Shown here: positions 14,350 through 29,027 of the stretch, one piece after another | Position numbering within the stretch: the first letter of the stretch is position 1 | Layout of the letters: each line of letters starts with the position of its first letter | Assembly (NCBI GenBank): GCA_951802425.1 | Contig: OX637798.1 | Coordinates: 3,348,001-3,412,000, forward strand | Length of the DNA stretch: 64,000 nt | DNA from: Clavaria fumosa | Taxonomy: Eukaryota > Basidiomycota > Agaricomycetes > Agaricales > Clavariaceae | Direction: 5' to 3' | Translations under genes and position numbers: made by a program | Notes under the pieces: model-generated | What the model was told of the DNA's origin: nothing | Database searches by the model: none | What the model saw: only the letters and a program-made list of their open reading frames with translations

Positions 14350-16050
14350 AGTGGTTGAAGATCAAAAGATGAGAAAGGCAGAGTGGAGCACAGCCGCTTT
14401 CAGGTCACTTTTTTTGTGTGTTGGCCATAACTCATTCATTTCTTGATGGAATTGCACGCGGTTTGTGGCATTCAATTTGCGGTAAAATACGCTTTAGAAT
14501 GATGTATAATATGTCCAGTATCTATGAGAGAAAAAACATCATGATTTCATGGTACAGAAATCTTAAAACTACTATATCTCACCCATTTCTTCATGAAATC
14601 ACAAGTAGTTTGGGATATTGGATTAAACATCAAATTTTCTTTAGAATGATGTATAATATGCATCCTAACTCTGAGATAAAAAAATACATTGGATTGGCAG
14701 TCAATGAAAAGTGTAGCACAGCCGCAGTGAGGTCACATTTTTTGTTTTAGCCATACCTCATTCATTTCTTCATCAAATCACACACTGTTTGTGGCATTCA
14801 ATTCGGCGTGAAAGGCGCTTTAGAATGATGTATAATATGTCAGGTATCTCTTAGGTAAAAAATAGCATGATTTCATGGTACAAAAGTGTTAAAACTACTG
14901 TATCTCACTTATTTCTGCATGAAATTACAAGCAGTTTGTTATGTTGGAATTAACAAAAAATCTGCTTCAGAATGATGTGTATTATGCCTGCTAACTCTGA
15001 ATTAAAAACTTCACTCTCAATGCTGCCACAAAAGAAATTTTGAGTGTAACACAACATTTTGTTTTCTTGTGCCTCCGCTAAATGAGCTAAATTCCTGTAA
15101 ATATTCATGTATATACTACCCATACATATCAACCTAATCTCAAAATCTAGTGAGAATCCATCAACTGGTTGCAGAGATATGGAAATAGAAGTACCTGAGT
15201 GCGACTTTCCAGAATGTCGGAGTTTAAAATTGGCACAATGCGGATTTTCTCCCACACCTGTAATTCACTTGATAAAATCCTGAACATATTACTGTAGGGC
15301 CTACTCATAGGTCCCTATCTACCTACAAAGTTTCACATAATTCTATTCAGTGGTTGTGGAGCTATGACATAGCTATGACATTCAGCACTCTCTGAGTTTA
15401 AAAATTAAAATGCAGATTGGGTGCCATGAAATTTCAACTGCCCTCACTCCCACTGTACATTTGATAAAATCACAAAAATATTAGTATGAATCAATCTGAT
15501 GATTTTCTATGTGCTGTCCAAATTTCATGGGATTCCATCCAGTGGCTGTTGAGATATGAGTGAAACATTTGTATCCCAAAAAGGCAGGACTTTGCCACAC
15601 TGCACAGCATGAAAGGAAAAGAAAAGATGAATGGCAAAATGATTGTCTGTCTTTATTAAAATAAAATATTATTGCTGGAAGAACTAGTGGGATTTAATGA
15701 AAACCCGGTATTTTGAAAAATGCCATCATGATAGGTTACCTTCATGAATATTTTCAAGATTTTTACAATTAAATTGAAGTCTGAGAATTTTTTGCAACAA
15801 TTTTTCATTTTACACATTGTTTCCTGAATTGTGAGTGAATGCAAACAGATATCAATGCAATTTTGAGATATATCATGTGTCTTATTGTATACTACATTCC
15901 ATAATATTTTCAGATTTTTGGCTAAGAAACTGAAAAAGTTTTCTCTATAGGCACTTAAAAAGATGAATCAATGAATCAATGAATCAATGAATGATGGGCC
16001 CTTTTCTGGGGTTGATAAGAATGATTCTTGATAAATCAAGAACTCATAAC
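14350..16050. other. Non-coding 5' region of the left Helitron copy, AT-rich degenerate repeats
   Basis: Contains four spaced copies of GAATGATGTATAATATG (about 14495, 14645, 14826, 14970) and, further out, loosely repeated blocks of about 200 bp with TTGATAAAATC and a CCAT..AGTGGTTG..GAGATATG motif (about 15060-15600). The same structures appear inverted at 23450-24560 and 29359-29900. No ORF of note. It ends in the TTCTTGATAAATCAAGAA palindrome. Confidence 0.65.
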
Positions 16051-16149: not shown

Positions 16150-17430
16150 AATAATCATATGCATGGGCTCAGCTCCGCCAGACAATGCAAAAATATTCAT
16201 TAGCCATCACAATGGGCTCTGCCGAACATTGCAAGAATATTCATCAACCATTAGGCATAGCTCCACCGGACAATGCCAGAATATTCAACCACCATTTAGC
16301 ATAGCTCTGCCAGACATTGCCAGAATATTTGTTAGCCATCACAACTAGATCTGCCAGACCATGCTAGAATATTTGTTAGCCATCACAACTAGATCTGCCA
16401 GACCATGCTAGAATATTCAGCCACCATTTGGCATAGCCCCACCGGACTATGCTAGAATATTCAGCCACCATCTGGCATGGCTCTGCTGGACATTGTGAGA
16501 ATATTAAGCATAGCTCCGCCGGACTATGCTAGAATATTCAGCCACGATTTGGCATAGCTCCACCAGACATTGCCAGAATATTTGTTAGCCATTACAACTA
16601 GCTCCGCCAGACTATGCTAGAATATTCAGCCACCATTTGGCATAGCCCCGCTGGACTATGCTAGAATATTCAGCCACCATTTTGCATGGCTCCACCAGAC
16701 ATTGTGAGAATATTCATCAACTATTAAGCATAGCTCCACTGGACTATGCTAGAATATTCAGCCACCATTTGGCATGGCTCTGCCGGACATTGCCAGAATA
16801 TTTGTTAGCCATCACGACCAGCTCCGCCGAATATTGCCAGAATATTCATCAACCATTGAGCATAGCTCTGCTGGACTATGCTAGAATATTCAGCCACCAT
16901 TTGGCATAGCCCACCAGACTATGCTAGAATATTCAGCCACCATTTGGCATGGCTCTGCCGGACATTGCGAGAATATTCATCAACTATTAAGCATAGCTCC
17001 ACCAGAATATTCAGCCACAATTTGGCATAGCTCCGCCAGACATTGCCAGAATATTTGTTAGCCATTACGACTAGCTCCACTGGACTATGCTAGAATGTTC
17101 AGCCACCATTTGGCATAGCCCCGCCAGACTATGCTAGAATATTCAGCCACCATTTGGCATGGCTCCACCGGACATTGTGAGAATATTCATCAACTATTAA
17201 GCATAGCACTGCTGGACTATGCTAGAATATTCAGCCACCATTTGGCATAGCTCTGCTGGACATTGCCAGAATATTCATCAGCCATTAAACATGGCTCCGC
17301 CAGACTATACCAGAATATTTGTTAGCCATCTTGCCCAGCTCTGCCAGACAATGGCAGAATATTCATCAGCCATTAGGCATGGCTCCAGAACTTTCATGAG
17401 CCATTAAGCATGCCAGACAATGCCAGAATA
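16150..17430. repeat. 44-bp minisatellite with a GAATATTC palindrome in each unit
   Basis: About 28 diverged units of roughly 44 bp (range about 38-60), each with AGAATATTCA..CCACCATTTGG, then CATAGCTCCGCCGGAC and ATTGCC or TATGCT. Most units carry the perfect 8-bp palindrome GAATATTC. Because 44 is not a multiple of three, the short ORFs here rotate frame and are not genes. The array lies between the inner end of the left Helitron and the 3' end of the KDZ gene. Confidence 0.9.
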
Positions 17431-17461: not shown

Positions 17462-20400
17462 CTAGACTGAACAGGTATGAGAAAATCTAAATAAATCCTC
17501 TGCTTCTTGCTCAAATTGCTCCCATACATTTGCCTGCCTGAATGCATAGCATGTCAAACCACTCTTTGCCTCTTCCATCTCTCCCAGTCTCATCCACTCC
17601 TCTTTCCTATGCCTGAAGAAGGCTACTGTCCATTGCATCTCATGTTTTAGCAAGTTGACTTCCTCATCCCATCTCTGAAATCATGCACTTGCTCTCAACC
17701 AGTTGACTCTGTAGACTAATCAAAGTTGCCAGACATTTCATGCATATTAATGATTTGTCACTTACATTCCTTCATTTGCTCACTCTGCTCTCCTTCCACA
17801 TTGACATCCAATCTCCAAAACCATGGTAGTTTGTCTGATCACTGTCCAAACCTATTTTCTTCTATGATATCACCTGGCATCTTCAAGTCTTCCTTGGTGA
17901 TGTCATTGAATGTTGGCTCTGTAACACCCAATCTGCATAAAGCAGACTTAGCCTGCTTGTAATCTTGTACTGCCTGCTGGACTCTTGACTCCATCTGCTT
18001 CACCTGGCTCCATGCTCGTGTTGAAGTTTTCTGGCTGCGAGCATTTCAGACCTAATGGCAGTTAGATCGTCAATGACAGTGGAGCTAAAACTTACATTTG
18101 CCCTATATATCATAGACTTCTCACCCAAAGCAATCCTGAGCCACCGTAAAGCATCATTCATCTGCCCTATGCAAAGCTTTGCCTCCCAGTTCCCCATCTC
18201 ATCCAAGTTATGTAATTGCCGAACTTCTTTGGACAAATTAGAGGGCAGAAATAGTGTCACAGCCTCAGGCTGTACTACTACATCTTCCTCATCATCAGAA
18301 GCAGCAACATCAACACTGACTTCTTCATCAAGCTGAGATGAATGGTTTGCCTGCAGTTTAATGGCTTCTTCAAAGAGAGATAAAGTGGCCCATTTCTTCT
18401 CATATTTGCTGATCTCAATCTGGAGGCACCTTCGCTTTTCCTCCAACTCCTTTTTATCAGAGAGTGAGGGTTGCCTCAAAGACTATGTATAGGCAACCAA
18501 AGAGGCCCTATTTTGTTGTGAATGACAGGCAATGGAACTTTGCAATACAACTCACTGAGTGGCTTCTATGCTCAATCCTAGAGCCAAGAGATTAGATATG
18601 CCAGATAGATTTCCAGCAGCATGATGTTTTTGAGAAAGCTCCAGTAGAACCTCAGCACAACCTGGTTCTGTGTAAAAGTGTATGCCATTAGCCAGGCAAT
18701 ATAGCAACTATAGATATGTTTTCCAACTACTGGCCTTTCACATTTGTGACATCGTACACCAAAAGAGCATCTCCCTGTTGAGTCATTGCCTTCTCCTCTA
18801 GGTCCTTCCATTCTAATACCCATGTTGGTTCAAGCCATTTCGTCAACTCATCCAGGGCTAACTTCTTGTCCTCTCTTTCAGTCATTGCTTTTTTAAACTT
18901 GGTGACAATAGATTGTGCTGTGCCAAGTCATCAGCAAAGACACATGTGAGAATATGGGGATTTGCTTACATGCTCTAGACATTTTCTTCCAATTGGAATT
19001 CTGCATGTAGCTGTCCAGTATCTCCTGCCGATGTGGTTGAGACATGCCCCTTGTATGGCTTGCTGCCTTATTAAGTGATGACCAAAGGCTTTCCAATACC
19101 TCCCCATCCAACTGCCCCACACCTTGCACAAAGTTCAAAGAGAACCATGCAAAACATTTTTGGGATGTGAGCACCTAAGTGGAATTTTCCAACTGCAGTT
19201 ATCACTTCAAGATCCTCCTGCACATACAAGTGCCCACTGGCATCAACTCACTGCTGAAAATTGATGTGCCACTCACATCCAACATAATATACAAAAATGA
19301 CTCTCTTGGCAAGTAAGACTTGCTTAAGAGCCTGACAGAAAGAATAGTCAATGTTCATCTGTCTTTGGCAATGTCAATTGGGAGAACAGAATTCAATGGC
19401 ATTCCCCACACACCTCTCTCCTTTTTGGAGATCCACTATGGGGATAGAAACAGCCATGGCGTCCACATGCAGATGCAGCCACTCCAGTAGCATGTAAATG
19501 GTCTCTTCGTAATCCACTGTGTCCATTTGCTTGGGATATTGCATGGTGGTTGTGACATTTAGACTTCTGAAAGTGAATTGTCAATAACCATAGAGGAAAT
19601 AATGCAGGAAATTTGGACCTGTTTTATCTCAATAGACGCCTTAATATGTTCCTGATATACTGCATCTTCAACCATATAACCTCATCCATCACTGAGATAG
19701 ACATCCTCCTCTGGCTTCTTAGTTACAACATTTTCCAGTTTGAAATTGCCATCTGCAACAATTGACAGTTCATAGATGGATCTATATGCTCCTGTTACTC
19801 TGAACATCTTCACAAGATGTGAAATTACTTACAGGTCTTCTGCATGTTTGACTTCATGCTCTGAGACATTTATTCCAGGTTGAGGACAACTGGGACAAAA
19901 GAGTGCCAAATCTCCAGGTTTTTGCATCTGGTTGGGGTCATGTGCAAAGCCTGTCCACTTCAAGGACTTGAGGTACCTCCACTCCCTTGATACCCTCATG
20001 AGTTCTTGGTAACGATCCTGGAAAAAGATAATCAATAATTTTTCAAAGAGACTCTCCATGTGTGATATACATACTGGAACAAGTGAAGGAAGCCTGTTGT
20101 ATGTTATCCTCTGCAGCTTGGTGTAGAAATTATGAGCTGATGTGTGGCACTCCAAAGTTTCAATATGAAACTGATCAAGGACATTGAAGGTAAACGCTGT
20201 GGAGGGCCTCTTGAGGGTAGATGGGAAAAATCACATACAAAGCAGCTGCATGTGTGCTGGTAGGGCATCTTCACTATTACACCATTGCACTTGATGCTTG
20301 TAGATTCCTGAGGTAGTCACAAACACCATGCTTTTTCCCCTCTGAAATGCACCATCCTCAACATCTAGTTGTATGTCCCCTTCTGATTCTCCCTCTTGAA

Positions 20401-20890
20401 CAAGATCATCCTCCCAGATGTCATCCCCAGGGGTGTGAACAGAACTGGCAAAGAGTGTTGGGCAAGGTTTCCCATCATGTCCAAAGTGAATAAGGAGTCC
20501 TAAATTTCCCAGGTCCTCTCTCTCAAAGAACTTCCCTGTCCATCTCTGTATATGATGGAAAGGAAGATGTTGATGTTGTACCAGGCAACAGTTGTGACAA
20601 AGAACTTGTTGGCCCTGGCAACAGTCAAGACAACGAAATAAGGCTAATGGTCCACCACAAACCACACAACTAGAGTCATGTGGGAGAGCCTCAAGTCCAA
20701 CTATTGCAGAGAGGTGAAGACTGCATGCGTCCTCTTTCCACTCTTGCAGGAAGTCATTTTGAGTCTAAATAATTTTGAGTAAGATATATGGTCATACAGT
20801 GTGTTTGGTTTGCACACCTTTCCCTTCTGCGAACATTTGGGAGTAGGACTTTTTGGTGTCTCAAATTCCAAAGTCATTGAAGCCAAGGCT
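17462..20890 (-). pseudogene. KDZ-family transposase (CxC cysteine cluster), decayed
   Basis: Exons on the minus strand carry the order typical of KDZ proteins. First a Cys cluster (CVVCGGPLALFRCLDC, CHNCCLVQH, LPFHHIQRWTGKFFE), then RPSTAFTFNVLDQF, DRYQELMRVSREWRYLK, LALFCPSCPQPGIN, a DGNFKLENV block, ATGVAASACGRHGCF, VQGVGQLDGEVLESLWSSLN, LRIALGEKSMIYRANV, and the C-terminal CYAFRQANVWEQ. Short introns with GT-AG ends are evident (for example about 20195-20224). A TGA at 19682-19684 interrupts SDG-x-GYM, where the family usually has Arg, and the frame is lost around 19390-19440. The block normally read YDxxCQW is YYVGCEW, so a probable catalytic Asp is gone. The gene is therefore dead. Confidence 0.85.
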
Positions 20891-21393
20891 TCAGGACTTA
20901 TCTCTCTGCCTCATTTCTTTGATGGTGATTGAGATACAGCCCTCCTTTCTTGGAATACTGGCTGATCTCTCCCTACCACCTTCCTGCCCCTTGTCCTCTC
21001 CTTAATCTCAAAAACCCTCTCTATGGCTCATGTTGCTCCTTTCTTGCGAATGACTGCACACATGGTTGGTTTCACATTAAACAAAGTCACATGATCACAT
21101 GAGGTGAGACAGGAATGTGACCAACAAAGCCTCATCATGTGCAGCCTTTGTCCTGAAGCTCGCCACTAGATTCACATTGTGTCATGAAGTCTCAACAGCT
21201 TGTTGTTACTCTGAGCAACAGTGTAGATAAATTTAAAATGGTCATAGTTTTTCATACATAACAGGTGAAAAACCTGGTCACTGCTGTTGAATGCATGATT
21301 GAACTACACAAGTTCACATGACAGAAAAAATGATTCATGAAGCAGAAGTATGATTTCACAACATAGAAATTATTTGTACAAGGCAAGAAATTC
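20891..21393. other. Intergenic gap between the KDZ gene and the H3-mimic gene
   Basis: No ORF or repeat recognised. It would contain the 5' region of the KDZ gene and the 3' region of the seven-exon gene, both transcribed leftwards. Confidence 0.5.
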
Positions 21394-23086
21394 CTAAAAC
21401 ATGTAGTAAAAATCTTGGGAGGCCTTCCAGATGGTCAAGAAGCTGGCAGGAGTCCTGTACAGGAGGCGCTTCCCCCAGCCCGCAATTCCTCCACTCGTAA
21501 TCTCCAAGCCACTCTTCCCTGCTTTCTGCCCTTTCCAGCCACATGAACAAGAGACAGAATAAAAACTGGGCTTTGCCATGTCAGTGCCAATTGTCAGTGT
21601 GCGAACAGCATGACAGACTGGGCACTGTGGTGAAATCAAGTCCCCGAGTGGACAGAGATTCTTGTACCACCAGACATACTTGAGGCCGATGAATGGTGAA
21701 AATACCTTGACTGACATATGGGCACCGAGGCCCTCTTCTTCTTTCAAAAGCTTGGGGAGAATGCAAATGATGGAAAAACACTCAACGAAATTCTTGATGA
21801 CAAGTTTCAGCAAAAATGAGGTTGCCAAGTGTGGATAAAAGTTCAGTTGACCAAACCCGATGATGTGGTTGAAACGCTGACTGCTGGTTGTGAGAAAGTA
21901 GGCAGAAACTCAAAATAAGCCACTTACAACTTCACAAACCTTTGCATTGCGAAGAGGGACGCATCCGTCTCCCACATACTCCTACATACCTCCATAATGA
22001 GCATCAAGTGCACACCCTTGGCAAACGATGTGAGATCTGGCCCAAGAATCTCTTCTAGAAACTAAAAATGAATGTATCCAGAACACCAATATCAAAAGTC
22101 ATGTGAAGAAAGACTTACCACTCCGATTTCAAGGGCTGTGCCTGGGGTGCAGTGGGGATCGCCACAGTCTGGGTCGGTATGTGTGTATAAAAAGACAAGG
22201 AGACGCATAACTCTCTTTCTGAATAAGAGAATAGTAATAAACATCAGAAATTGACTTATAAATAAAAAATAAGACTTACTGTTGAATATGTTTTACAAAT
22301 TTTGCCAAGATCGACTGGTGCTTCTGCAATGACTTGATGTCCGATGGAATAACATCCAGCTTGACTTCTAATTCGAGGAATTCCCTTCCCTCTGATTCTG
22401 GGGTGTACCACCTGCTCAGTGTGTTCACCACAGACTTGAAAAGATTGCCCCTTTCAGTGATGGAGCTGAGGCGAATATTGACAAGGGCGATTGAGTTGGT
22501 GTTTTGGTGTGTGTAGTGTCCTTGGAGTGTGGCAGGCTTGACTAACCCAAACAGTTGTGGGATGGGTTGATCATCATGGTGAAGGGGCTAAGAGCTCAAA
22601 ATTCAGTTCCTACCATGCAAGGTATGAAAATAAAACCATACATGATAGGGCTTGTTCTGAGCATCAGACCTGATATGGCAACTCACACACATGAACTTTG
22701 TGTTTGCCTGGGCAACCAAGTGCTGCCCCCCTGGGATACTCAAGCACCTGTCACACATCATTCGTGGACAGTAATTGCAATTTAGAGACAGCCCGCCATT
22801 CCCACACCCAGAACACCACTATGGGGCAGTCAGGTTGGATCCAATGGCAAATCCAAAGGGGGTCCACTCACCTCATCATTTGCCTCTGGGTCTGTGGGAT
22901 GAACTGTAGGCTGATCTCCTGATCAACATGATCGGAATGGACAGACACACCAGTGCTTACCAGAATGAGAGCAGGATCCTTGCGTGCTGGTGCAGGATCA
23001 GCAGACTTGGGATAGTCCTTAGGCAGGGTGGCTCTCATAGCAGGAGCACCAGATGACCTCTTAGCAGATTGCTTAGTCCTAGCCAT
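21394..23086 (-). CDS. Histone H3-tail-mimic protein with PHD-like finger, seven exons
   Basis: Exons: 23086-22961, 22910-22872, 22818-22642, 22587-22280, 22218-22119, 22061-21928, 21883-21394. All six introns are GT-AG and the phases join without a stop to give 457 residues. After the initiator Met the protein begins ARTKQSAKRSSG, matching H3 (ARTKQTARKSTG) at A1-R2-T3-K4-Q5, A7, S10 and G12. Ala at position 2 would favour Met removal, exposing an H3-like N-terminus. Residues 57-102 form a zinc finger CX2C-X8-CX2C-X4-CX2C-X18-CX2C, the PHD spacing with Cys in place of the usual His. A second Cys set (CPVC at 382-385, CSC at 407-409) resembles a zinc ribbon. The ends of exon 7 offer a NAGNAG acceptor. 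It lies 0.5 kb upstream of the KDZ pseudogene in the same orientation. Chromatin binding is inferred; no named family is claimed. Confidence 0.8.
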
Positions 23087-23449
23087 GGTTGTGTGAGCGG
23101 ACAAGGCAGACAAGGTGGTGGAAACATTATCTCAAAGTGCTGAACACATCACATGACTTAAAAAATCATGTGGCATGCGGTAACCACACACAGCGTGGAT
23201 GTCAGTTTAAAGACAAAGTCCAGTTCATTAACTTTTTTTTTCGCTTGACAAATAATCCTAACTACGCAGCTCAGTGGTGTGGAACCCCCAATGTGGGCCC
23301 TCATTGGGAGTTCCCCACCACATGAACCTTACATGATGTCTACAACTACAAAAGAAGAGAAAATGCAGAATCACAGCTGATACCAACACCGGTGGTTGAG
23401 TATGTTGAGTTTTGGGTTGCACATCACAAAATCACCTGAAACTGCTTAA
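23087..23449. other. Upstream region of the H3-mimic gene
   Basis: Presumed promoter segment between the gene start and the inner end of the right Helitron copy. No TATA box is clear and no other gene is seen. Confidence 0.4.
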
Positions 23450-24567
23450 GTTATGAGTTCTTGATTTATCAAGAATTCATTCATCAACCCCAGAAAAGGG
23501 CCCATCATTCATTGATTCATTGATTCATCTTTTTGAGTGCATATAGAGAAAACTTTTTCAGTTTCTTAGCCAAAAATCTGAAAATATTATGGAATGTAGT
23601 ATACAATAAGACACATGATATATCTCAAAATTGCATTGATATCTGTTTGCATTCACTCACAATTTAGCAAACAATGTGTAAAAATGAAAAATTGTTGCAA
23701 AAGATTCTCAGACTTCAATTTAATTGTAAAAATCTTGAAAATATTCATGAAGGTAACCTATCCTGATAGCATTTTTCAAAATACCGGGTTTTCATTAAAT
23801 CCCACTAGTTCTTCCAGCAATAATATTTTAGTTCAATAAAGTCAGACAATCATTTTGCCATTCATCTTTTCTTTTCTTTCATGCTGTGCAGTGTGGCAAA
23901 GTCCTGCCTTTTTGGGATACAAATGTTTCACTCATATCTCAACAGCACATAGACAATCATCAGATTGTTTTATGCTAATATTTTTGTGATTTTATCAAAT
24001 GTACTGTGGGTGTGAGGGCAGTTGAAATTTCATGGCACCCAATCTGCATTTTAATTTTTAAACTCAGAGAGTGCTGAATGTCATAGCTATGTCATAGCTC
24101 CACAACCACTGAATAGAATTATGTGAAACTTTGTAGGTAGATAGGGACCTATGAGTAGGCCCTACAGTAATATGTTCAGGATTTTATCAAGTGAATTACA
24201 GGTGTGGGAGAAAATCCGCGTTGTGCCAATTTTAAACTCCGACATTCTGGAAAGTCGCACTCAGGTACTTCTATGTCCATATCTCTGCAACCAGTTGATG
24301 GATTCTCACTAGATTTTGAGAGTAGGTTGATATGTATGGGTAGTATATACATGAATATTTACAGGAATTTAGCTCATTTACTGGAGGTGCAAGAAAACAA
24401 AATGTTGTGTTACACTCAAAATTTCTTTTGTGGCAGCATTGAGAGTGAAGTTTTTAATTCAGAGTTAGCAGGCATATTACACATGATTTTGAAGCAGATT
24501 TTTTGTTAATTCCAACATCACAAACTGCTTGTAATTTCATGCAGAAATAAGTGAGACACAGTAGTTT
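23450..24567. other. Non-coding 5' region of the right Helitron copy
   Basis: Colinear and inverted with 14900-16050, including the terminal palindrome and the loosely repeated blocks of about 200 bp. It continues after the Copia insertion at 29359-29906. No gene. Confidence 0.6.
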
Positions 24568-24877
24568 TGATGAAGCGTATGCTTCGCCTCCGCTCTTACT
24601 CGCTCTCGGACTCGCTACAGAACAGGCGGCACACGCTTGCACCGCCCTTTCGATAGTTATTCCTGTTCTCCTCTCTATCTATACACCGTAGTTTACCCAT
24701 AGATACTACTTATACCATTGTTGAACACTCGTAGGAGTTCATGCGTTCTTACCTTACCGCGTGAACTCCAGGTTAGTACTTACCCTCTGATTATTGCTAC
24801 TTAAACTAACGAATACATGTGTTCTTACCTTACCGCGTGAACTCCAGTTTCGCTTCGGTGCGCCTGCGCTGTTGTGA
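24568..24877 (+). repeat. Copia 5' LTR
   Basis: 310 bp. Contains a hairpin-forming inverted repeat, GGAGTTCATGCG at 24734-24745 and CGCGTGAACTCC at 24758-24769, with a 12-nt loop. Its right arm recurs near 24832-24843. Six CpG sites present in the 3' LTR are TpG or CpA here. Confidence 0.95.
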
Positions 24878-24892
24878 GATTATGAGACCCGG
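24878..24892 (+). promoter_or_regulatory. Putative primer binding site, half-tRNA (Met-CAU) type
   Basis: The 15 bases directly after the LTR, GATTATGAGACCCGG, are the reverse complement of a methionine tRNA anticodon arm (loop with CAU inside GGGTCTCATAATC) rather than of a tRNA 3' end, which would begin TGG. Drosophila copia uses an internal fragment of initiator tRNA-Met in this way. The assignment here is inferred from this match alone. Confidence 0.55.
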
Positions 24893-24917
24893 TAACGGAC
24901 AGTTGGATTCGGCTGCA

Positions 24918-27900
24918 ATGGATGCCTTTAGATTCCCCAAACTAAATGGACAGAACTACGCTAACTGGTCCGTACACATGAAGTCTGTGTTACAGGCCAA
25001 GTATCTGTGGTTAGTGGTAACGGGCACCGAGGCCTGCCCAGCCAGACCAGCCGATCCGTCACCGGAATCCGCACCGAGCGATGATGATCGCATGAAACTT
25101 CGCGAGTACCTTGACTGGGTGACCCGCGACGGCGCCGCACAGGGCTTGATGCGCAGCGCGACGGACGAGTCGCAGTGGCCACACGTTACGAGCTGTGAAA
25201 CATCAAAAGACATGTGGGATGTATGGAAGCAAGTTCACCAGACGAACCAGCAATCAATAAACATACATTACTTCTTCGAGGAACTCTATACGCGGAAGTA
25301 CATCGATGGGGCGCTAATGGCCGACCACATTGCCGCCATCCTCGACATCCGGGACCGCATAATTCAAGCCGGGGAAGCGATCCCCGACCTCCACATTGCC
25401 CGCGCGATGATACTATCGCTACCGAAGACGTTGTCCTGGGAAATGATCAAGATACAGCTCTTTGACATCAAGGTTCTTACCTCTGACATTGTGAGCACGA
25501 AGCTCCAGACCGAGGCGAACCGACGCATCCGCGAGAAACCCGGTGGGGGCCAGACTGCGCTCCAGGCCTCCACGAAGTCCAAGAAGGGCAGTGGACGAGG
25601 CAACGGACAGAATCGACCGAAGGGCAAATATGGTCGCGGCCCACAACCTGAAGATGTGTGTTGGAAGTGTAAGGAAACTGGCCATTGGGGAAATCAGTGT
25701 CCGAACGCACCACAAGAACACGACGACAACAAGAAAAGAGGCCACTCACATGGGAAGGCTTCGGCGCATGCAGCGACGTGCGACCTCCTGGATCTTGTGC
25801 CGCGAACTGCTGGGTCCGTTTTTATGGCTACGCAACCTGATCCCATTGTCAAGGTAATCCTTGACTGCGGAGCAACGGCCCACATGTTCCACGACAGGTC
25901 CTTCTTTTCGTCCTATACGCGGACGACTGGTTATTCCGTGTCTGTCGGAGACGCTCGAAACGTACCGGTCGGGGGCTACGGATGTGTCCGTTTGAGGATT
26001 AAAGTCCCTGGTGGGCATCACACAATGGTGTTACACGGCGTCATGCACGTCCCAAAGCTCGCTATCAACCTTATTAGCCTTGGTGCACTTCAAAGTGATG
26101 GAGCATCTTACAGGAGTACAAAAGACGGGTTGTTGGTGATGCAGGGGAGGGACGAGATCCTTCACGCCGAGCTCAGGAGCGGGCTCTACTTTGTGGATTG
26201 TGTCCGTGCGGATGCCGCCGCTGCCTACGAAGTCTCCTCTGGTGCGAGCCTTCGAACATGGCATCGACGGATGGGACATCTACACCTAGGAGCAATTCGT
26301 GAGCTCGCACGAACAGGAATGGTGAAGGGACTCACCATATCCTCAAGCGACTACGACCGTGTTTGCGAGGGCTGCGCGATGGGAAAATCCCACCGCTTGC
26401 CACTTCCAAAACGAAGCGAGACAAAGTACGGACCTATGGACTTGATTGTCGCTGACTTGACAGGACCTATGAAGGTCGAGACGTGGACCGGGATGCGCTA
26501 CGCCCTCGTCATTGTCGAAGTCAGTTCCAGGTTCGGTATGGCGCGACTATTGAAGACGAAAGACGAGGCGCCTGACATGTTGAAAGAAATAATCACATTG
26601 TTAGAACGACAATCAAGGCAGAAGTTAAAATGTCTACACACCGATAATGGGACCGAGCTCGTAAATGATAGAGTTGATGAACTCTGTAGCCGCAACGGGA
26701 TCCGCCACGAGACGAGCGTTCCCTATGGGCCAGAACAGAATGGTATAGTTGAAAGGTTCATTGCTACGTGCTTTGAAATGGTTAGATGCATGCTACACTC
26801 AAGCCACATGGACTCACGGTACTGGGGGGAGGCGTTGATGTACGCCATACACATTCGAAACCTCTCACCGACCGCTGCCATCGCCGACGTCGTCCCGTAC
26901 GAGGCCTGGACCGGCCGGAAACCTGATGTGTCGCACCTACGAATTTTCGGATCCATCGCGTATGTGAATATACCGAAGAAGGTACGAGGGGGGAAGTTGG
27001 AACCTACCGCTGTGAAGTGTCGCTTGCTCGGATGGTGGGCTGACGAAACTAAAGGTTACCGACTTGAAGATATAGAAACGAAGAAGCTAATCACCTCTAG
27101 GGACGTCCGCTTTGTTGAGAATATTGAGCCAGCCGATATAGCCGTTATCGAAGGAGACGATACCCCGAGCGAGGTGGATGACCTGCGTGAGCGAAGGCCG
27201 ACCGAACCTTCGGATGTACCGGTGGTGCCCACGGACGTTGACGATGCTGTCGAAAGCATTGAAAGGTTAGAAGTAGCCGAAGAGGTGGGAGAAAACTTAC
27301 CGCAGGAAGCAGTAGTCCCTCCGCCTCATCGCGAACGCCCTACCCGGGCGCGACGACAGCCAGCTCGCCTTGATCAAGCCGCTACGGAAGAAGAGGTTGA
27401 TAGGGCTATCCAGAGGGGAGAACATCATGTTTTTGTTGCCAGAGATGGGGATCCACGGACGTACCGAGAAGCGATGCTCTCACCGCATGCAAAGGAGTGG
27501 GAGAAAGCCGTAACTGCAGAGTTTGAACAGCTACGCACGTTCGGGACGTTCGAGTGGGTGCCAAAGGTTCCTGATGGACGGAAAGCGATAGGGAGCCGGA
27601 TAGTCTTCCAGACGAAACGAGACGGTAACGGAAATGTGGTCAGGTATAAGGCGCGGGTGGTTGCGAAGGGATACTCACAGGTACCTGGACAGGACTTCAC
27701 TGCGACGTTTGCATCCGTCGCACGTCTGACTACACTTCGAACGCTCCTGTCGATGGCCGCACGAGAGGACTGGCTACTCCATCAAGTCGACGTAGTGGGA
27801 GCCTACCTGCGAGGAGATTTAGAGGAGGAAATCTACTTGGAGCCGCCCGACGGAGCACGTACCAGCGAGAAAGACAAGCGCGTTTGGAGACTACAGAGGC

Positions 27901-29027
27901 CGCTCTATGGCCTCAAACAAGCTGGCAGACAGTGGAAGATAAAGCTAGGAGAAACTTTGAAGCGACTAGGCTTTACCAACAGCACAGCTGATGACTGCCT
28001 TTACATGAAGAAACGAGGAGATGGGATAGATGCACTGGTGCTGGTGTACGTCGACGATATGGTCATTGCAGCAAAGGATATTCGGACCGTAGAATGGTTC
28101 AAGGGGGAACTTGGAAACGTGTTTCAGATCTCAGATTTGGGCAAGCTGAAACACATACTAGGGATTAGGGTGCAGCGTGATCGCCCAAGCCGAGCCATCC
28201 GATTGGACCAATCCGCTTATATCCGAGGTTTACTCTCACGGTACAAAATGGAAGATTCCACGCCTGTCGCCACGCCGGCAACCATCAAGGGACGACTCTC
28301 GGCCCTTGATTGCCCTGCTACTAGTGCTGACCGCACCGCATACAACGACTTTGCCGCTGGTCTGAATTACCTCGAATGTCTTGGAGGCGTCCTCTATGCT
28401 ACCCAAACCCGCCCCGACATCCAGTATGCGACTAACGTCTGCGCACAGTTTGGATCCAACCCTGGAAAGCCCCACCTTATGGCCTTGAAGCACATTCTAC
28501 GCTACCTCAAAGGTACGACAAACTACGGTTTGGTCTTAGGTGGCAAAAATGACACCATCGACGTGGTCGGATGGACGGACTCTGACTGGGCGCAAGATCT
28601 CGCCGACCGACGATCCACTGCGGGATTTATCTTTGATGTCGCTGGAGGAACCGTCTCTTGGGCCTCAAAGAAGCAGCCCACCGTCGCATTATCCACCGTG
28701 GAAGCGGAGTATATGGCCTCAGCAAATGCGACCAAGGAGGCGATTTGGCTACGTACCTTGCTTTCTGACCTGGGTTTCCCTCAATCTGTCACTACCGTCA
28801 TTCACGCCGATAACCAGGGCTGTATCGCACTCGCCAAGAACCCCGTTGCTCACTCGCGAGCAAAACATATCGATATTCGACACCATTTCCTCCGCGAACG
28901 TGTCGCTACCGGCGAGGTCTCGTTCAAGTATTGCCCGACGACCCAGATGATAGCCGATATCCTCACGAAGCCGCTCCCCCGCGACTTGTTCGAGCGATTT
29001 CGTACTATGCTGGGAGTCATTGAATAG
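24918..29027 (+). CDS. Copia Gag-Pol polyprotein, intact
   Basis: About 1369 codons in one frame. Order of domains (residues from the ATG at 24918, reading MDAFRFPKLNGQNYANW): Gag; CCHC zinc knuckle CWKCKETGHWGNQC (about 248); aspartic protease DCGATAHM (about 315); integrase HHCC (WHRRMGHLH about 448, CEGCAMGK about 483) and DDE core with TDNGTEL (about 575) and PYGPEQNGIVERF; reverse transcriptase (QVDVVGAYLRGDL about 957, YVDDMV about 1045); RNase H (WTDSDWAQD about 1219, VEAEYMA, HADNQGCIAL). The protease-integrase-RT order defines Copia. An upstream in-frame ATG (24882) overlaps the putative primer site, and one at 24819 is inside the LTR, so 24918 is preferred. Gag and Pol are in one frame, so their ratio must be set by other means. 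Confidence 0.95.
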   Translation: MDAFRFPKLNGQNYANWSVHMKSVLQAKYLWLVVTGTEACPARPADPSPESAPSDDDRMKLREYLDWVTRDGAAQGLMRSATDESQWPHVTSCETSKDMWDVWKQVHQTNQQSINIHYFFEELYTRKYIDGALMADHIAAILDIRDRIIQAGEAIPDLHIARAMILSLPKTLSWEMIKIQLFDIKVLTSDIVSTKLQTEANRRIREKPGGGQTALQASTKSKKGSGRGNGQNRPKGKYGRGPQPEDVCWKCKETGHWGNQCPNAPQEHDDNKKRGHSHGKASAHAATCDLLDLVPRTAGSVFMATQPDPIVKVILDCGATAHMFHDRSFFSSYTRTTGYSVSVGDARNVPVGGYGCVRLRIKVPGGHHTMVLHGVMHVPKLAINLISLGALQSDGASYRSTKDGLLVMQGRDEILHAELRSGLYFVDCVRADAAAAYEVSSGASLRTWHRRMGHLHLGAIRELARTGMVKGLTISSSDYDRVCEGCAMGKSHRLPLPKRSETKYGPMDLIVADLTGPMKVETWTGMRYALVIVEVSSRFGMARLLKTKDEAPDMLKEIITLLERQSRQKLKCLHTDNGTELVNDRVDELCSRNGIRHETSVPYGPEQNGIVERFIATCFEMVRCMLHSSHMDSRYWGEALMYAIHIRNLSPTAAIADVVPYEAWTGRKPDVSHLRIFGSIAYVNIPKKVRGGKLEPTAVKCRLLGWWADETKGYRLEDIETKKLITSRDVRFVENIEPADIAVIEGDDTPSEVDDLRERRPTEPSDVPVVPTDVDDAVESIERLEVAEEVGENLPQEAVVPPPHRERPTRARRQPARLDQAATEEEVDRAIQRGEHHVFVARDGDPRTYREAMLSPHAKEWEKAVTAEFEQLRTFGTFEWVPKVPDGRKAIGSRIVFQTKRDGNGNVVRYKARVVAKGYSQVPGQDFTATFASVARLTTLRTLLSMAAREDWLLHQVDVVGAYLRGDLEEEIYLEPPDGARTSEKDKRVWRLQRPLYGLKQAGRQWKIKLGETLKRLGFTNSTADDCLYMKKRGDGIDALVLVYVDDMVIAAKDIRTVEWFKGELGNVFQISDLGKLKHILGIRVQRDRPSRAIRLDQSAYIRGLLSRYKMEDSTPVATPATIKGRLSALDCPATSADRTAYNDFAAGLNYLECLGGVLYATQTRPDIQYATNVCAQFGSNPGKPHLMALKHILRYLKGTTNYGLVLGGKNDTIDVVGWTDSDWAQDLADRRSTAGFIFDVAGGTVSWASKKQPTVALSTVEAEYMASANATKEAIWLRTLLSDLGFPQSVTTVIHADNQGCIALAKNPVAHSRAKHIDIRHHFLRERVATGEVSFKYCPTTQMIADILTKPLPRDLFERFRTMLGVIE

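Follow-up and report, generated by a model that had tools for sequence, protein, structure and literature searches.

A putative KDZ transposon companion protein of Clavaria fumosa combines a histone H3-like N-terminus with a PHD-type finger and a predicted caspase-fold core

KDZ (Kyakuja-Dileera-Zisupton) transposons with TET/JBP cargo, the anti-silencing proteins of VANDAL elements, histone mimics and CHAT proteases are all known already. The gene considered here lies in a 64,000-nucleotide stretch of the genome of the agaricomycete Clavaria fumosa (contig OX637798.1, positions 3,348,001 to 3,412,000; "the window"), where it runs from 23086 to 21394 on the minus strand, and the best explanation for it is that it encodes a companion protein of the KDZ DNA transposons of mushroom-forming fungi. 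Its product very probably consists of an H3-like tail, a linker, a PHD finger, a predicted caspase/CHAT-fold core with a His-Cys pair and a C-terminal zinc ribbon. This build is well supported, whereas its function is inferred.

The KDZ transposons with TET/JBP cargo are likewise elements of Agaricomycetes, whose additional gene is proposed to act against epigenetic silencing (PMC12730594); their cargo is a DNA-demethylating dioxygenase, in contrast to the protein-level chromatin mimic, reader and predicted protease found here, and the terms "histone H3" and "PHD" are absent from the main text of that paper. VANDAL elements with VANC also encode an anti-silencing protein and possess non-coding tandem repeats, to be compared with a 44-bp array at the present locus, but VANC binds the non-coding regions of its own element, and the abstract mentions no histone mimic, reader or protease (PMC10398659). 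An N-terminal mimic of the free H3 tail, directed at LSD1, occurs in the SNAG repressors SNAI1 and GFI1, which differ in being host genes (PMC5896174). In the host protein BAZ2B, an H3-like stretch and an H3-reading PHD finger are present in one polypeptide with a bromodomain, a case of intramolecular mimicry, but the stretch is an internal linker rather than a free N-terminus copying H3 1-20, and no protease is involved (PMC5663869). With the CHAT/caspase-fold proteases (SAVED-CHAT, MALT1, metacaspases) the core shares the predicted fold and the succession of His and Cys at strand ends; in our searches no sequence similarity to them was detected, and the present core, which resides on a transposon, shares its polypeptide with an H3-like tail and a PHD finger. 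The SNAG sequence, with a start of the type MPRxFLV, differs from the H3-like tail, and to our knowledge SNAG repressors have neither an H3 reader of their own nor a protease core; no MPRxFLV-type start was found in the family described here, whose members begin with MARTKQ, MPRTKQ or variants. Neither a transposon-borne H3-tail mimic nor a KDZ element with a histone mimic was found in the open literature, subscription journals being mostly outside this search; the founding KDZ/TET paper (Iyer et al. 2014) may contain a mention.

The proposed chain of seven exons, joined across six GT-AG introns into 457 codons with no internal stop, was recovered identically by protein-guided spliced alignment. 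All exons are on the minus strand: exon 1 (22961..23086; begins MARTKQSAKRSSGAPAMRATL) contains the codons of the H3(1-20)-like tail (23024..23083), exon 2 (22872..22910) the linker and exon 3 (22642..22818) the finger (Cys57 to Cys102, 22678..22815); exon 4 (22280..22587) is followed by exon 5 (22119..22218) with the conserved His (residue 230, 22181-22179), exon 6 (21928..22061) with the conserved Cys (residue 276, 21986-21984) and exon 7 (21394..21883) with the zinc-ribbon-like Cys set (residues 382-409, 21624-21541). Read upstream from the ATG, the frame runs into a stop after 15 codons and contains no other Met, so the product should start with MARTKQ, barring an unseen upstream coding exon. 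An artefact of gene prediction was rejected: no in-frame Met lies between the preceding stop and the ATG in the window copy, which belongs to family A, or in the single copy tested from each of families A3, B, G, D and C; for A, A2 and J, the copies examined allow a further in-frame Met upstream.

Residues 2-13 of the window protein read ARTKQSAKRSSG. The identity with H3 at positions 1-5, 7, 10 and 12, given in the original prediction, is borne out, and the tail also matches H3 at A15, R17 and L20, so that 11 of 20 positions are identical, without gaps up to L20. No histone fold follows: the close match to H3 covers the first 20 residues only, the histone Pfam models gave no match, and in the predicted models the tail is succeeded by a low-confidence linker and then the finger. 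A MARTKQ-type pattern, which also admits MASTKQ, occurs at 31 sites of the genome as compared with 0 for the reversed-pattern control; 27 of these sites belong to this gene family (13 in family A, 6 in B, 5 in C, 3 in D), two to histone H3 genes and two to others. One lone MARTKQ site (L035, C10:2242540), with CAVYQYTTIA next, may belong to an H3 gene interrupted early by an intron, or may be due to chance. In a search of PDB sequences, an eight-member family profile matched H3 from residue 1 to about 40 at E values of 1e-5 to 4e-5 (among the 60 matches listed), and residues 1-23 of the database homologue P0002 from Earliella matched H3 peptides at 0.011 and worse. A chance ARTKQ start was rejected on the grounds of the pattern counts, the profile match and the conservation across N-termini. 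Other families begin with MARTRQ (A2, A3), MPRTKQ (G, I), MARNKQ (J) and MARTTQ or MARTMQ (F, H), and families K and M have no recognisable tail; altogether, the tail occurs in eleven subfamilies of this genome, as labelled by us, and in six other genera.

Thirteen database homologues were retrieved, from Earliella scabrosa, Dichomitus squalens, Ganoderma leucocontextum, G. sinense, Polyporus arcularius, Pleurotus djamor and Lyophyllum shimeji, including one fragment; Earliella belongs to the Polyporales and Lyophyllum to the Agaricales, and the remaining genera are Agaricomycetes as well. The last of them, P0013 (start: MARTKQSADKSTGAPAPRVEL), was the one relative added by a third protein search with P0012 as the query. 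Overall identity to P0002 is 24-47% for eleven of the 13. Conservation of the ARTKQ start holds for ten of the 13, which begin with MARTKQ, but not for P0004 (MAGTQQ) or for P0001 and P0009, which lack the start; MARTKQ start and finger occur together in 8/13 database proteins, and the genome families modelled with a tail have the finger too. P0008 (Ganoderma sinense, 705 residues), named Peptidase S53 domain-containing in UniRef, consists of the mimic protein and a further C-terminal stretch; it is probably a fused gene model, or perhaps a real fusion.

For a comparison of the tail, 24 N-termini were chosen as representatives. This set excludes L054, which starts MVRTHQSVKRSSGARAMRVTL and holds two stops; the A3a-like L051 and L056; L055, in which a start could not be located; additional copies from families A, B, C, D, G and J; and three proteins, namely the fragment P0001, P0009, whose annotated start lies elsewhere, and P0013, which was retrieved later. 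The H3 residue is kept at A1 in 22, R2 in 23, T3 in 23, K4 in 17, Q5 in 24, T6 in 14, A7 in 17, R8 in 9 (Lys in 12), K9 in 7, S10 in 19, T11 in 19, G12 in 21, G13 in 6, K14 in 1, A15 in 16, P16 in 8, R17 in 21, K18 in 1, Q19 in 1 and L20 in 22. Wholly or mostly retained are thus Arg2, Gln5, Gly12, Arg17, Leu20 and a basic residue at position 8; Lys14 and Lys18 are gone, and position 9 is mostly Arg, Gln, His or Thr instead of Lys. Lys4 is replaced by Arg in three N-termini and by Thr, Met or Gln in four, which makes a reading through Lys4 methylation only too narrow.

The codons used for the same tail residues differ widely among 12 families; between G and I (the family-I locus L063 holds one stop), 11 tail codons differ, all synonymously. 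The ratio of non-synonymous to synonymous substitution (dN/dS) of the tail is 0.08 for A/A3, 0.10 for A2/A3 and 0.04 for G/I, and 0.58 for B/H, where Lys4 is lost; past the finger it is 0.09-0.12 in all four pairs, and in the linker about 0.5 where computable. The tail is therefore under purifying selection in three of the four pairs. In a set of 15 proteins the mean pairwise identity is 0.60 for the tail, 0.37 for the finger, 0.30 for the core, 0.28 for the ribbon and 0.25 for the middle part (103-105 pairs each), and 0.19 for the linker (27 pairs). Being the best-kept region and under purifying selection, the tail is likely to have a function. It may have come from an H3 gene or arisen by convergence, a span of 20 residues being compatible with both.

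The Cys spacing of residues 57-102 is exactly that claimed previously, and in PDB sequence searches and a fold match the finger aligns with PHD fingers and no other family. Residues within 103-169 of P0002 matched CHD4 (1.1e-6), TRIM33 (5.6e-6), PHF21A/BHC80 (9e-5) and AIRE (1.5e-3), as well as TRIM66 and TRIM24; in one search the eight-member profile retrieved PHD and ADD fingers at 3.8e-8 to 2.3e-5 among the 60 matches listed, CHD4 at 3.8e-8 and the ADD finger of ATRX at 5e-7; and the predicted model of P0003, from Dichomitus, matches the BHC80 PHD finger with a probability of 1.00 and a root-mean-square deviation of 2.8 A over 61 columns. Several of these matched fingers read H3 unmethylated at Lys4 (H3K4me0), and by alignment and model the finger matches the class reading the unmodified H3 N-terminus. 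With this class (BHC80/PHF21A, CHD4, TRIM24/33, AIRE) it shares the spacing, the fold and, in most members, a core of GG and CDxC, the Asp of which contacts Arg2 in AIRE-type fingers and is present in 8/8 aligned rows. It differs in the third ligand pair, where the class has H-x2-C and the present proteins have either C-x2-C, as in the window family among others, or C-x2-H, as in most of those from Polyporales; the canonical Cys4-His-Cys3 ligands are thus absent, Cys standing where His is usual. The Pfam PHD model matched neither the window protein (E up to 1) nor P0002 (E up to 5), and with the window finger exon by itself the PHD and ADD matches were all non-significant (0.25 and worse). At residue 70 (22776-22774) the window protein has Asn, where each of the seven further family-A copies modelled has Asp. 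The suggested docking of the ARTK end in the finger of its own protein appears in neither AlphaFold2 model: residues 1-14 score below 50 in the predicted local distance difference test (pLDDT), and strand or bridge is assigned only from about Arg17 to residue 21.

Between the finger and the C-terminal Cys set lies a core predicted to adopt a caspase/CHAT fold. The original prediction, correct in its tail and finger, missed this core and its His-Cys pair, which changes the likely mechanism. The predicted models have the features of a caspase fold, with His and Cys following strands 280-288 and 327-335 in one of them; in clan CD the catalytic His and Cys come after the third and fourth core strands. 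The pair is invariant in 12 aligned cores, a chosen set outside of which P0001, P0006, P0007, P0009, P0010, P0011 and P0013 were examined separately. Sequence searches with the core gave nothing significant, the comparison with CHAT resting on fold instead of a sequence profile; no curated protease family model matches, and the proteins scanned are not covered by any curated family model. Protease fold and PHD fold are thus predictions from structural models.

Families K and M are related paralogues in which no tail can be recognised. Of these, K (L068) can be aligned over finger and core, M (L067, plus strand) reliably over the later core part only, and neither stretch examined holds a tail-like 21-mer, the best scores being -6.3 and -7.2 versus 49.7-69.8 for the tails from which the score was built. 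At the sites of TH or NH and of CG in tailed families, family K has STQ and TGL; family M has NH and SSN, and a Cys two positions later. The aligned Cys is therefore lost in both, the His in K only. Tail and Cys appear to have been lost jointly, in two related cases only.

The gene is multicopy, by which a host gene that happens to lie beside a transposon was rejected. A DNA search of the 48.8-Mb genome gave 35 matches, 11 of them full-length at 95% identity or more (including the window copy) and the others older subfamilies at 67-78% plus fragments, and a protein search gave 150 exon-level matches. Downstream on the same strand, Pfam identifies pieces of a KDZ transposase (18893..20764), with CxC2 in 20764-19829 (PF18803, 9.5e-12) and the end of the KDZ domain in 19174-18893 (PF18758, 5.3e-14). 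The genome contains at least 185 KDZ pieces, of which 150 were listed; the window's own is among the other 35, and the count of neighbours is accordingly a lower bound. At least 18 of the 27 family MARTKQ sites are within 10 kb of a listed KDZ piece, compared with 5.9% of the genome, a contrast given without a probability because the gene copies are not independent. The spacing between gene and KDZ piece repeats within families (3.7 kb in four copies of A, 4.8-5.0 kb in C, 5.2-5.7 kb in D, 4.5-5.6 kb in three copies of B), ranging from 3.7 to 5.8 kb overall in families with a near KDZ piece. The mimic does adjoin a transposase, as first noted, but as a recurring KDZ companion and not as a neighbour by chance.

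Catalysis, substrate, pseudo-substrate control and an anti-silencing role are inferences from this anatomy. We tentatively prefer a chromatin-aimed cysteine protease with an anti-silencing role that uses its H3-like tail as a pseudo-substrate, while placing this combined reading somewhat below an even chance; the anti-silencing role taken separately is about evenly balanced, and pseudo-substrate control of a protease lies between doubtful and slightly short of even. The preference stems from one model accounting together for the reader, for a mimic that extends as far as residue 20, for the His-Cys pair and for what K and M have jointly lost. It would operate in the following manner: the finger would bring the protein to nucleosomes with unmodified H3K4; the tail would serve as an intramolecular pseudo-substrate or propeptide, lodged in the finger and/or the protease cleft, and would be released when real H3 displaces it or when it is cut; the protease would then act on the H3 tail or on tail-bound proteins near the element. 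The H3 span 1-20 is the piece removable by H3 clipping, and cathepsin L cuts at A21. A further but weak point in favour is that Arg17 and residue 21 of the mimic, unlike its ARTK end, are given strand or bridge in both models (pLDDT 51-57, from two alignments with the same proteins). A more specific version, in which a dedicated histone-tail protease is held off by its substrate mimic until the PHD finger meets H3, then clips near residues 17-21 and removes silencing marks around the element, is rather unlikely.

Several observations weigh against the preferred reading. The CDxC Asp is found in 7 of 10 database finger proteins, with Asn in P0011 and P0012 and Ser in P0008, and P0011 (Polyporus arcularius, 287 residues), which is a gene-model fault or a real short form, has tail, finger and C-terminal part without the His-Cys stretch; both make the reading somewhat less likely. 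P0004 has the His-Cys pair with a degraded tail and, together with P0011, points away from a coupling of tail and core. The homologue searches may favour tailed proteins, as the query words included the tail, and nine of the 27 MARTKQ sites lack any listed KDZ piece at a distance of up to 10 kb. The families starting with MPRTKQ, and those with Arg, Thr or Met at position 4, fit a ligand that is bound and not processed.

The last point favours the strongest rival, doubtful as we consider it, namely that the free ARTKQ end is a hook or decoy that occupies, recruits or blocks host H3-tail enzymes at the element, the core being secondary. Candidates would be an LSD1/KDM1-type demethylase, COMPASS, or PHD or chromodomain remodellers, as in the SNAG-LSD1 case. 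The conserved span up to R17 and L20 exceeds the need of a PHD finger alone, and P0011, with tail and finger only of the relevant parts, is readily accommodated. SNAG domains offer a precedent, mimicking the H3 tail and occupying the LSD1 cleft (PMC5896174). A hook leaves unexplained, however, why an H3K4me0-class finger and the His-Cys pair are mostly kept in the same protein, and why tail and Cys are lost in K and M.

Self-assembly only, as originally envisaged, would place the tail in its own or a neighbour's PHD finger for autoinhibition or oligomerisation, with the core as a non-catalytic scaffold. The H3-mimicking linker of BAZ2B, which inhibits its own PHD finger (PMC5663869), and the joint occurrence of MARTKQ start and finger described above agree with this. 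We nevertheless regard it as improbable: residues 1-14 are unplaced in both AlphaFold2 models, the tailed proteins P0010 and P0013 have annotated models without a finger (possibly a gene-model fault), and a scaffold needs no conserved His and Cys. Chromatin-reading parts of other mobile elements target them, and the repeated KDZ spacing within families and the class of the finger would suit a transposition cofactor that targets the KDZ transposase to H3K4me0 chromatin, with a regulatory tail and a non-protease core; this is more improbable still, as contact with the transposase is unsupported and the His-Cys pair unexplained. A captured H3 5' end carried as a functionless passenger is conceivable from P0006 and P0010, identical to H3 at 16/20 positions, but is largely contradicted and very improbable in view of the purifying selection on the tail between old families, its standing as the best-kept region and the loss of K14 and K18 while arginines 2 and 17 stay.

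Around the gene, the stretch 17491..23451 (minus strand) is colinear at 95.7% with a copy on contig C11, and homology to other copies ends at 23451 in six of seven and at 23367 in the seventh. The 44-bp tandem array (16171..17386) beside the transposase gene is shared with the C11 copy; it has 28 copies in the window and an 88-bp period in the C11 copy (L069 881-4136). In VANDAL elements, too, the targets of anti-silencing are tandem repeats. Gene and transposase are flanked by inverted repeats of about 1.1 kb (14891-16050 and 23450-24568), the arms of which are 96-100% complementary. These were rejected as the element's own ends, seven other copies lacking the sequence beyond 23451, and no target-site duplication was found at the 14891/24568 repeat ends (window copy, cut at 23451); they belong to something else or to a rearrangement. 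Adjoining the right arm is an open frame of 1405 codons (24810-29027, plus strand), which by motif we take to be a Copia-type retrotransposon polyprotein. Of the mimic gene, eight further copies keep just the last ~89 codons; they are 94-97% identical in DNA, and a KDZ piece lies roughly 2 kb from each (C1:135343, C4:85852, C4:4459924, C5:83980, C6:3562459, C11:2660284, C12:92206 and C14:106661); several are near contig ends and perhaps subtelomeric. Moreover, several copies of family A have a K-family gene and more KDZ pieces within a few kb, in the same order (L068, C7:1272018-1288582, C10:2462627-2482851 and C2:2586543-2615547), as composite blocks of KDZ units or segmental duplications.

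The window copy itself is ageing though its frame is open, and less altered copies exist elsewhere in the genome. In a comparison of eight family-A copies it has 49 private changes in the gene, each other copy having 2-7. C-to-T and G-to-A together account for 30 of its 49, and 18 of those 30 fall at CpG, which looks like methylation-driven decay. It also has Arg for the Gly that follows the core Cys in the seven other copies modelled.

Histone mimics are known from viruses and a few host regulators, and a transposon-borne mimic extending to residue 20, with a reader and a predicted caspase-type core, is of a kind for which our search of the open literature gave no record. The families constitute a natural experiment on the H3 residues needed by a reader or protease, in which Arg2, Gln5, Gly12, Arg17 and Leu20 stay and Lys14, Lys18 and mostly Lys9 go. 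If true, a protease with a substrate mimic would be the protein-level counterpart of the TET/JBP cargo in the same transposon superfamily. The findings suggest a way in which mobile DNA may interfere with the chromatin that silences it, and open to test whether such DNA overcomes silencing through an attack on the histone tail or through its imitation.
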